From Candidatus Nitrosopumilus sp. (GTDB lineage: Archaea; Thermoproteota; Nitrososphaeria; Nitrososphaerales; Nitrosopumilaceae): a stretch of DNA of 12,366 nt. Shown here piece after piece: positions 700-9,894 of the stretch; position 1 is the stretch's first letter; the number at the start of each line of letters is the position of its first letter. The DNA lies in contig DAOWGL010000047.1 of assembly GCA_030637455.1 (NCBI GenBank), positions 1 to 12,366 of the forward strand, read 5' to 3'. The translations under genes and the position numbers were made by a program. The notes under the pieces are model-generated. The model ran no database searches. It was not told the DNA's origin and worked only from the letters and a program-made list of their open reading frames with translations.

Positions 700-981
700 T
701 CATTCTTTGACTATTTCTACAACATGTTCAATAATTTTCGTTGAAATTAACGTGTGTTCTTTGTCCAATATTGATTGTATAAAATCTGCAAAATACTCTA
801 CTGTTTCTTCATCTTTGAGTAGTATGCTATGAGCTGATTTATCTTTCAATGAAATTACCAGTTCATTTTTCACAATGTTTAGAATTCCTGTGATAAAAGT
901 TTCTTTTCCTTCATTTATGAAAATAAGACTAGCTAGTTTTTGTGCCTCATATTTATCATCACAAGTAATGTCTATTTTCAT
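700..981 (-). CDS. Uncharacterised 93-residue protein coupled to trpS
   Basis: Its ATG overlaps the stop of trpS in an ATGA arrangement (978-981), so it is probably co-transcribed and translationally coupled with the synthetase. The sequence suggests a small alpha/beta fold: a strand (KIDITCD), a helix (about residues 10-20), strands around 30-47, then a helix over about 55-72. There is no signal peptide, membrane segment or metal motif; it is probably a soluble cytosolic protein. The strand-helix-strand-strand-helix order loosely recalls small KEOPS Pcc1-type proteins, but I see no diagnostic residues and do not assign it. Function unknown. Confidence 0.75.
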   Translation of the reverse strand: MKIDITCDDKYEAQKLASLIFINEGKETFITGILNIVKNELVISLKDKSAHSILLKDEETVEYFADFIQSILDKEHTLISTKIIEHVVEIVKE

Positions 982-2090
982 TTATTCTCAAAAAGAAATT
1001 GATCTATTTGGTTTTTAGCTTTTTCTCTGTTTTCCTGATGAATTGCAAGAAATGAATTAATTTTTTCAATCAAGATTGCTTTTAGTTCGCCTGAAAGTAG
1101 TTTTCCTGATTTATAATCTTCATAAATTGTTTTTAATTTATCATCATCTGGCTCAAAAAATATTCTTAGATATTGATAGGATACATCGATATCTGGATTT
1201 CCGCCAAGTTTTCTATGTTGTTCAATATCAGGTTGTCCTCCTGAAAATGCATGTTTGTTAATTTTCTTTTTTACTTCAGATGGAGAATCAGTTGTGAATA
1301 TTGTACCTTTTTCATCCGATGCTGACATTTTTCCACCAGGCCCTTCTAAACTAGGAATCATGATATTGTGAACCAATGCTGGTTTTTGTTTTCCAATTTT
1401 TGGTGCAATGTCTCTTGTTAATCTAAAGTGAGGATCTTGATCAACTCCTAATGGAATTAACACTGGTTTATCTTCAATAAAACATGGAGCTGATTGTAAC
1501 GATGTATAAAATATCATTCCAATATTTGTTTCATTTGTAAAACCAAACGTAGCTTTTGTATTTGAAAAATTAATTTTTTTTGCTACCTGAGCTGCAATTG
1601 GATATAATGTTTGAATATTTTTTGTATTTATGATAATTTTTGTTTTTTCTGGGTCAAAACCTAATGCGATAAAATCTAACGCGTTTTCATAAGCAAATTT
1701 TTTTGTATCTTCTAAAGTAAGATTGGGTTTTGAATAAAATTTTTCATCATCGGTAAGTTGAAAATACAAATTCACATCAAATTTTTCTTGTAACCATTTT
1801 GCAAACATCCATGGTACCAAATGTCCTATGTGAGTATGCCCTGAGGGACCTCTTCCAGTATATAGGAAGAATTTGTTTCCTTTCTCATATTCATCAAGAA
1901 TTCTAGTCAGTTCTCTATGTGAGAAGAAAATACCCCTTCTGAGCATAAAATGATCCTCGCCTGTGATTTTCTTGATTTTCTCTAGTAATTCTGAAGAAAT
2001 TTTTTCAGTACCAAATTGCTTGATTAGTTTATCATAGTCAATATCACCCTCAACATGCCAAGGTGTTACAATAAAGTCATCAGCTGACAT
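978..2090 (-). CDS. trpS: Tryptophan--tRNA ligase (TrpRS), archaeal type
   Basis: A class I aminoacyl-tRNA synthetase that activates tryptophan with ATP and charges tRNA-Trp in the cytosol. Its signatures are the HIGH motif in GPSGHTHIGH (HIGH at residues 87-90) and the archaeal/eukaryotic variant of the second ATP loop, GGKMSASD (KMSAS at 254-258). The Rossmann-fold core lies between and around them, followed by a helical anticodon-binding C-terminus. The 370-residue length is normal for archaeal TrpRS, which is longer than the bacterial form. The ATG at 2088-2090 lies 24.5 bases from the centre of a TTTAAA box, supporting this start and a leaderless mRNA. It diverges from pheS and is followed by an overlapping small gene. 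Its substrate tRNA-Trp is encoded at 9821-9894. Confidence 0.97.
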   Translation of the reverse strand: MSADDFIVTPWHVEGDIDYDKLIKQFGTEKISSELLEKIKKITGEDHFMLRRGIFFSHRELTRILDEYEKGNKFFLYTGRGPSGHTHIGHLVPWMFAKWLQEKFDVNLYFQLTDDEKFYSKPNLTLEDTKKFAYENALDFIALGFDPEKTKIIINTKNIQTLYPIAAQVAKKINFSNTKATFGFTNETNIGMIFYTSLQSAPCFIEDKPVLIPLGVDQDPHFRLTRDIAPKIGKQKPALVHNIMIPSLEGPGGKMSASDEKGTIFTTDSPSEVKKKINKHAFSGGQPDIEQHRKLGGNPDIDVSYQYLRIFFEPDDDKLKTIYEDYKSGKLLSGELKAILIEKINSFLAIHQENREKAKNQIDQFLFENK

Positions 2091-5236: not shown

Positions 5237-5404
5237 CGCCCAAGAGCAAGCATGCAGACGGATTAGGATGAGTCGATCGTAATGATACCAGTGATTTCTA
5301 ATTCACCCAGGCGTGCTACATTATGGGCAACCCCGGTTTCAGAACGCGAGGAGGCGTATGGCTATGACCAATGAGTTTGTGCGAGTCAGAACCGGGGAAC
5401 ATAT
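5237..5404 (+). ncRNA. Candidate two-hairpin H/ACA guide RNA
   Basis: Two hairpins, each followed by an ACA, fit the archaeal H/ACA plan. Hairpin 1: lower stem GCATGC 5250-5255 with GCGTGC 5311-5316; upper stem GGATTAG 5260-5266 with CTAATTC 5298-5304; a kink-turn-like cap with GATGA 5267-5271 and TGA 5292-5294; then ACATTA 5318-5323, which matches the H box ANANNA. Hairpin 2: lower stem CCCCGGTT 5331-5338 with AACCGGGG 5390-5397; a short upper stem CGCG 5345-5348 with TGCG 5380-5383; then ACA 5399-5401. The 3' side from upper stem to ACA is 13-14 and 15 bases, close to the usual 14-16. A T-run follows at once. GCCCA 5238-5242 can also pair with TGGGC 5324-5328. Such RNAs guide Cbf5-dependent pseudouridylation. 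Targets were not identified. If not H/ACA, it is still a strongly structured RNA. Confidence 0.65.
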
Positions 5405-5405
5405 C

Positions 5406-5412
5406 TTTTTTT
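5406..5412 (+). terminator. Poly-T terminator after the structured RNA
   Basis: Seven consecutive T residues begin 5 bases after the final ACA (5399-5401), directly downstream of the GC-rich CCCCGGTT/AACCGGGG stem. Archaeal RNA polymerase terminates at such T-runs. The run continues into AAAAACC, giving TTTTTAAAAA, which could also act as a TATA element for the next gene (ATG 5451) with a leader of about 13 bases. Confidence 0.6.
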
Positions 5413-9816: not shown

Positions 9817-9820
9817 AAAG

Positions 9821-9894
9821 TGGGCCCGATCGGATTTGAACCGACGATCGATGGTTTTGGAGACCATCGCCCTACCAGGCTAGGCTACGAACCC
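9821..9894 (-). tRNA. tRNA-Trp (anticodon CCA), intronless
   Basis: Folds as a complete 74-base cloverleaf on the minus strand. The acceptor stem GGGTTCG pairs with CGGGCCC (two G-T pairs); T8 A9; a D stem GCCT with GGGC; an anticodon stem ATGGT with ACCAT around the loop CTCCAAA, which reads CCA at 34-36; a five-base variable region; and T stem GTCGG with CCGAT around TTCAAAT. The discriminator base is A73. CCA is not encoded (next bases CTT), so it is added by the CCA enzyme. No intron interrupts the anticodon loop, unlike many euryarchaeal tRNA-Trp genes. It is the substrate of TrpRS encoded at 978-2090. Confidence 0.97.

Follow-up and report, generated by a model that had tools for sequence, protein, structure and literature searches.

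In this study, we show that the gap after an ORF called pheT in Candidatus Nitrosopumilus, an archaeon that oxidises ammonia in the sea, holds an unannotated structured RNA at positions 5238-5401 (+) of the window, the whole 12,366-nt stretch of DNA that was analysed, and we propose that this locus very probably encodes an archaeal box H/ACA guide sRNA of two units, directing pseudouridylation in 23S rRNA. The interval of about 164 nt, whose ends are approximate, comprises an outer stem (P0), hairpin 1, a hinge, hairpin 2 and a terminal ACA, all on the + strand like each of its elements given below. An earlier note on the surrounding 176-base stretch, which is the source of the names pheT and EVE for the flanking ORFs, had claimed two hairpins with ACA triplets, and these lie where it placed them (5318-5320 and 5399-5401). 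A double-hairpin H/ACA guide RNA is also in our analysis the best reading, the features of archaeal H/ACA RNAs that can be tested in sequence being present or nearly so. The stretch 5237-5412 folds at -55.6 kcal/mol (z = -2.62 against dinucleotide shuffles, with 2 of 200 shuffles equal), a value that is modest alone; we accept the RNA as real because the comparison of relatives settles what fold energy alone leaves modest. No other RNA family fits the locus better: Rfam 15, searched with the window at E<=5, gave only tRNA and weak CrcZ matches, both away from the locus, and four distant loci gave no match at E<=1. We have little doubt that the RNA belongs, as a new member, to the archaeal H/ACA class; it is not reported among the open-licence literature matches listed, which is weak evidence of novelty.

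The stems and ACA boxes on which the earlier note staked its reading are kept in relatives, and the compensatory changes for which it suggested looking are found. The alignment set consisted of 38 representatives at 97% identity, drawn from the 80 distinct cores of the full-length loci, and later of 46 sequences after eight more divergent ones were added (alignment A2). In A2, 92.9% of the cells pair and 17 of the 37 pairs are changed on both sides, against 8.7 in shuffles; the covariation score is 0.212 versus 0.122 in shuffles and at most 0.069 in slid versions, and none of 500 shuffles reaches any of five measures. The shuffles ignore relatedness, and the slid control, which retains it, scores far lower. 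In hairpin 1, the lower stem (5249-5255 with 5311-5317) has six of seven pairs doubly changed, and the upper stem (5262-5268 with 5296-5302, spanning 5262-5302 with its apical loop) shows compensatory changes as well. In hairpin 2, the lower stem (5331-5338 with 5390-5397) is nearly invariant, with two of nine pairs doubly changed, and the upper stem (5344-5350 with 5376-5382, spanning 5344-5382 with its K-turn) has four of seven; the latter is the weakest helix, with 74.8% of cells paired. The hairpin 2 lower-stem strands CCCCGGUU/AACCGGGG are almost invariant in A2, whereas those of hairpin 1 vary freely. Across several families, a hairpin 1 set of 37 sequences (A5, L170 left out) has 12 of 16 pairs doubly changed and a covariation score of 0.490 versus 0.272 in shuffles; this set was selected by pocket motif, and the invariance of its pockets therefore proves nothing.

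Each unit has the stem-pocket-stem layout, as drawn by the covarying stems, and tandem GA with an NNU bulge, the sequence mark of a K-turn, is largely invariant in both hairpins in A2. The GATGA/TGA cap that had been read in hairpin 1 fits such a K-turn, with UGA at 5269-5271 (invariant in A2) facing AGUGA at 5290-5294; the second strand as a whole (5290-5295) is made of the bulge AGU followed by GA and U, and its UGA is invariant in A2. The K-turn of hairpin 2 is formed by GAGG (5351-5354) and CCAAUGA (5368-5374), in which CC and UGA are invariant in A2. In L155, L158, and L164, the hairpin 1 apex is reduced to UGA-loop-UGA, which is short and resembles a K-loop, and it is K-loop-like in L165 too; K-turn and K-loop are alternatives in archaeal H/ACA RNAs (PMC4652768, in the part available). 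The first ACA box (5318-5320) is present in 45 of 46 sequences in A2 and 15 of 17 in alignment A3, and in the same numbers of sequences it begins exactly 13 nt from the first base of ACCCAG. The terminal ACA (5399-5401) is present in all sequences (46/46 and 17/17), and in 46/46 and 16/17 it begins exactly 14 nt from the first base of GUCAG. The earlier note also saw an H box ANANNA in the hinge and a run of seven T after the RNA. Neither is conserved: the former occurs in 24/46 sequences in A2 and 2/17 in A3, and at least five T within about 30 nt after the ACA occur in 21 of 82 distinct loci. The hinge box is conserved as ACA only, without a true H box.

In the accessible text of PMC4652768, the published geometry has a GA stem of 10 bp and an ACA distance of 14-15 nt in productive folds and 14-16 nt generally. 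In hairpin 1, U5302 lies 15 nt from the ACA, and 10 layers separate A5262-U5302 from the second GA pair; in hairpin 2, the closing position A5344/C5382 lies 16 nt from the ACA and the guide strand 14 nt. Thus, both hairpins have the 14-16 nt spacing and only hairpin 1 the stricter 14-15 nt. Two machinery genes are present in the lineage, a Cbf5-type DKCLD domain having been found in all seven genomes searched, the window's own included, and Nop10 in six of these seven, absent only from the window's 80%-complete genome. Judged on these sequence features, membership in the archaeal box H/ACA class appears well supported and is highly probable.

The outer stem is an addition to this layout. Complementary strands stand before hairpin 1 and just past its ACA (GCCC/GGGC, CCUC/GAGG, GCCUAC/GUAGGC, CCCGCCG/CGGCGGG, and CCCACCG/CGGUGGG in different loci); in the window they are GCCCA (5238-5242) and UGGGC (5324-5328). 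On the MAFFT alignment A1, P0 came out with just 85.5% of its cells paired and a single doubly changed pair, because the spacers differ, and a free helix search was therefore used. Its first version put 95 of 97 loci over the cut-off versus 35.5% of shuffles, a lenient control, and a few places were mispicked (L144, L161). In the partner-exchange test on 49 diverse loci, whose partner strands covary, the mean helix score was 17.4 versus 12.6 (sd 0.5) after exchange, a value that 0 of 500 exchanges reached, and 48 of the 49 loci scored at least 10 versus a mean of 36.2 after exchange; by eye, five (L224, L225, L232, L233, and L236) have no convincing P0. Hence, most of the loci checked have an additional covarying helix around the first ACA, and in many deep lineages this helix directly abuts the ACA. 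The descriptions of Pf7/Pab40 and Af4, in the portions available, mention no outer stem around the ACA box. Between P0 and the lower stem of hairpin 1, AGAGCA (window 5243-5248) is unpaired and nearly invariant in A2.

The earlier note placed a pocket in each hairpin, and the pocket strands are better drawn as GACGG/ACCCAG in hairpin 1 and AGA/GUCAGA in hairpin 2. It proposed comparing them with 16S and 23S rRNA. The rRNAs scanned were those of a close relative, the organism's own assembly being without rRNA, and E. coli numbers were obtained by counting on, over short segments, from correspondences given in the literature. A flexible stacking-energy scan of the pockets with free offsets and gaps along 16S and 23S was not better than shuffled guides (577, 651, 331, and 709 of 1000 shuffles were as good in four settings). 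It was replaced by the published H/ACA spacing with a shuffle control of its own, and with this set spacing U1921 of 23S came out on top for hairpin 2 and, only under relaxed pairing rules, U2586 of 23S for hairpin 1.

For hairpin 2, the 5' guide strand AGA (5341-5343) is complementary to 23S UCU (E. coli 1923-1925), and the 3' strand GUCAGA (5385-5390) to UCUGAC (E. coli 1915-1920). By simple pattern, AGA is found in 39/46 sequences in A2 and 12/17 in A3, and GUCAG in 46/46 and 17/17. At the 14-nt setting, the best site is UCUGAC-[U]C-UCU, i.e., U1921, with a score of -15.6 (next -7.6), first of the 989 uridines of 16S and 23S; shuffled guides equal this score in 94 of 1500 trials. The real rRNAs contain the pattern UCUGACUNUCU a single time; of 3000 shuffled pairs, 8 contain it. 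At the 16-nt setting, hairpin 2 prefers 23S 2287. Just before GUCAGA, the dinucleotide differs between distant relatives (GA, GG, CA, AA), as would be expected if it faces the unpaired U1921-C1922. The predicted pairing, with U1921-C1922 left unpaired, is of textbook geometry, and we regard U1921 as the reasonably probable target of hairpin 2. The H. marismortui pseudouridines 1956/1958 correspond to E. coli 1915/1917 and to yeast 2258/2260 (PMC2584109, available part); counting on, site 1921 therefore corresponds to yeast 2264, which lies in helix 69 and is a pseudouridine made with snR3 (PMC8307265, in the text accessible). E. coli 1915/1917 themselves were rejected by hand as sites for hairpin 2 for poor pairing.

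For hairpin 1, GACGG (5257-5261) is complementary to 23S CCGUC and ACCCAG (5305-5310) to CUGGGU. GACGG is found in 43/46 sequences in A2 and 15/17 in A3, and ACCCA in 46/46 and 15/17; both are in 20/20 matches of model R2 (A6), counts to be taken with caution as R2 was built from sequences picked by pocket motif. The earlier statement that only half of this pocket fits the CUGGGU segment was too cautious, because GACGG fits CCGUC, five bases downstream of CUGGGU. At the 14-nt setting, hairpin 1 scores best at CUGGGU-U[U]AGA-CCGUC, i.e., U2586, with -22.2 (next -16.6), first of the 989 uridines, provided that the top position may be mismatched and that 0-3 extra bases in the target are tolerated. 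This rank is partly post hoc, because the setting, the mismatch and the extra bases were chosen after the CUGGGU/CCGUC match. Shuffled guides equal the score in 25 of 1500 trials. CUGGGU-N(2-8)-CCGUC has a single occurrence in the real rRNAs, and 19 of 3000 shuffled pairs contain it. At U2586, the top mismatch sets U2585 against a C or U in most sequences, two additional target bases are unpaired (five instead of the usual two), and the guide base U5303 is unused if A5262-U5302 closes the stem. In L221, L232, and L233, an A stands before ACCCA in place of the C or U of most others; it would pair with U2585, consistent with U2586 as the target. Strict settings give 16S position 1017 (14 nt) or 23S 355 (15 nt), not U2586, and our estimate is lowered for this reason, so that we lean only slightly toward U2586 as the predicted target. 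According to the available part of PMC2584109, the equivalent of E. coli 2586 is a known pseudouridine in Haloarcula (psi2621 of H. marismortui); it was not found as such in P. abyssi and is a plain U in the yeast column of the table.

It is possible, though on balance unlikely, that the RNA is of the H/ACA type and that its pockets, either one or both, serve other sites. Hairpin 2 might act on U1923 (yeast psi2266) instead of or besides U1921, since an 8-nt strand, GAGUCAGA, pairs fully with UCUGACUC; two uridines two apart were likewise proposed for Haloferax HP2 (PMC2584109, part available). However, the two bases preceding GUCAGA are those that vary in distant relatives, as expected if they face the unpaired U1921-C1922, and U1923 does not rank at the 16-nt setting. 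Hairpin 1 might guide another rRNA or tRNA uridine such as 23S 355, its best site at the 15-nt setting with 6+2 pairs; but only two pairs would form on the 5' side and the GAC of the conserved GACGG would be left unexplained. Among the 16S and 23S uridines scanned, we keep to U1921 and U2586 as the predicted pair; in the 23S of L116 they are positions 2024 and 2686. The target segments hardly vary among relatives: in the 23S of 17 relatives, CUGGGUUUAGACCGUC is present in 17 and UCUGACUCUCUUAAGG in 15, with one base change in L172 and an insertion in L177. L177 (23S of G002) gives a 23S match spanning 3764 nt, and after UCUGACUCUC its helix 69 region is split by this insertion, which lies within the hairpin 2 target and may be an intron.

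The element is widespread. A DNA search of the order at E<=1e-3 found it in 190 of the 400 sampled genomes, counting the window's own, and in 22 of 66 genera. It is present in 110 of the 111 loci compared, the exception (L080) ending within pheT, and in full length in 107, with 80 distinct cores; among the 111, the window locus and several contigs are counted twice, and 80 were reached via the PheT protein. In a sample of 397 genomes from the phylum, a whole-RNA model matched 83, and in a chosen set of 20 it matched 17; these counts include genomes that supplied model sequences. The hairpin 1 model alone matched 127 of the 397 genomes in 48 of 170 genera. An alignment of 86 distinct upstream stretches made for a promoter was not interpretable.

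A PheT-like sequence lies in the same 1 to 5 kb stretch as the RNA in 46 of 58 loci chosen by DNA or RNA search independently of gene order (L124-L131, 6/8; L141-L157, 15/17; L158-L170, 12/13; L218-L237, 13/20; L132, without the RNA, excluded), at a variable distance of up to about 1.6 kb (L230); an EVE-like gene downstream is not constant. This neighbourhood would suit a cis element of the pheST transcript, i.e., a 3' UTR stabiliser or processing signal in place of a trans-acting guide. We find this very improbable, since it leaves K-turns, ACA spacing and rRNA complementarity unexplained; moreover, hairpin 2 occurs alone in the f8 loci (L156, L159, L160), and in family f2 (L164, L165, L168) the two hairpins are separate matches with a TATA-like UUAUAAAU before the second. 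The trans-acting guide thus stands as our reading of the locus.

Several further observations concern the composition of these loci. In L157 (1501-1640; genome of about 0.8 Mb), hairpin 2 is retained and hairpin 1 is without guide strands and ACA, with the 23S target segments intact despite this decay; a lineage loss of the peptidyl-transferase guide is possible. In many of L218-L237, a second hairpin, its strands being AGAGAG and either GUUAG or GAUAGG, is seen by eye downstream of hairpin 1; it has its own enclosing helix, and its guide differs from that of hairpin 2. A similar second hairpin was folded in L161, L162, L163, and L169. In the window, a 370-aa ORF at 978-2090 (-), presumably TrpRS, has similar sequences near the RNA in several distant loci too, and a tRNA-Trp lies at 9820-9894 (-).

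As a mechanism, we propose that L7Ae would bind each hairpin at its K-turn and that Cbf5-Nop10-Gar1 would sit along the stem and ACA box of each, so that every hairpin would offer a bipartite antisense pocket to 23S rRNA in which one uridine may be converted to pseudouridine. In hairpin 2, GUCAGA would pair with UCUGAC and AGA with UCU, leaving U1921-C1922 of the helix 69 region unpaired at the site of yeast psi2264. In hairpin 1, the peptidyl-transferase centre would be paired at two segments, CUGGGU with ACCCAG and CCGUC with GACGG, so that the hairpin is positioned to modify U2586. We infer transcription, RNP assembly, modification and the exact uridines; taken as predictions, two sites in the catalytic heart of the ribosome are probably modified via this RNA. 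The five unpaired target bases of hairpin 1, instead of two, might also suggest a ribosome-assembly chaperone, guide-like and pairing with rRNA without modifying it, yet the elements for catalysis are present by sequence and the available part of PMC2584109 gives U2586 as a known pseudouridine in Haloarcula; a chaperone seems hardly credible to us in place of a modification guide. More tentatively, and with more doubt than confidence, we suggest that an old guide has been kept through much of the phylum near PheT-type genes and that its first unit may be a structural variant of the H/ACA type. Its ACA would be clamped by P0 and the lower stem in place of forming a free tail, and its pocket would hold the 23S peptidyl-transferase loop with five unpaired target bases, making a pseudouridine at U2586.

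The double-hairpin H/ACA RNA of Haloferax volcanii, which we take to be sR-h45, is similar in its description, as far as the accessible account goes: it has two units, the first a candidate for E. coli 2586 and the second for helix 69. There, HP1 was an in-silico candidate for psi2621 (E. coli 2586), and the candidate sites of HP2 were two uridines of helix 69 (PMC2584109, available part); the second unit was assigned E. coli 1915/1917, in contrast to 1921 here. Pyrococcus Pf7/Pab40 and Archaeoglobus Af4 also carry several H/ACA units per RNA, one of them on helix 69, but in the descriptions available Pf7 has three hairpins, not two, and the helix 69 target of these RNAs is the E. coli 1915 equivalent. 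Archaeal H/ACA RNAs with two or three hairpins have been called rare (PMC7991803, in the text available). The site predicted for hairpin 2 coincides in helix 69 with that of yeast snR3 (psi2264), and yeast snR84 makes psi2266, the equivalent of U1923; unlike the present RNA, snR3 and snR84 are eukaryotic H/ACA snoRNAs. For marine archaea, the open-licence literature matches listed include no guide-RNA or pseudouridine report.

If the enclosed ACA is real, it raises the question of how Cbf5 binds a box flanked by two helices. A guide that fits the peptidyl-transferase centre can be traced across the phylum in 48 of the 170 genera sampled, and Rfam recognised it neither in the window nor at the four distant loci searched. 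The two hairpins provide a concrete, testable pair of predicted ribosomal modification sites in marine archaea.
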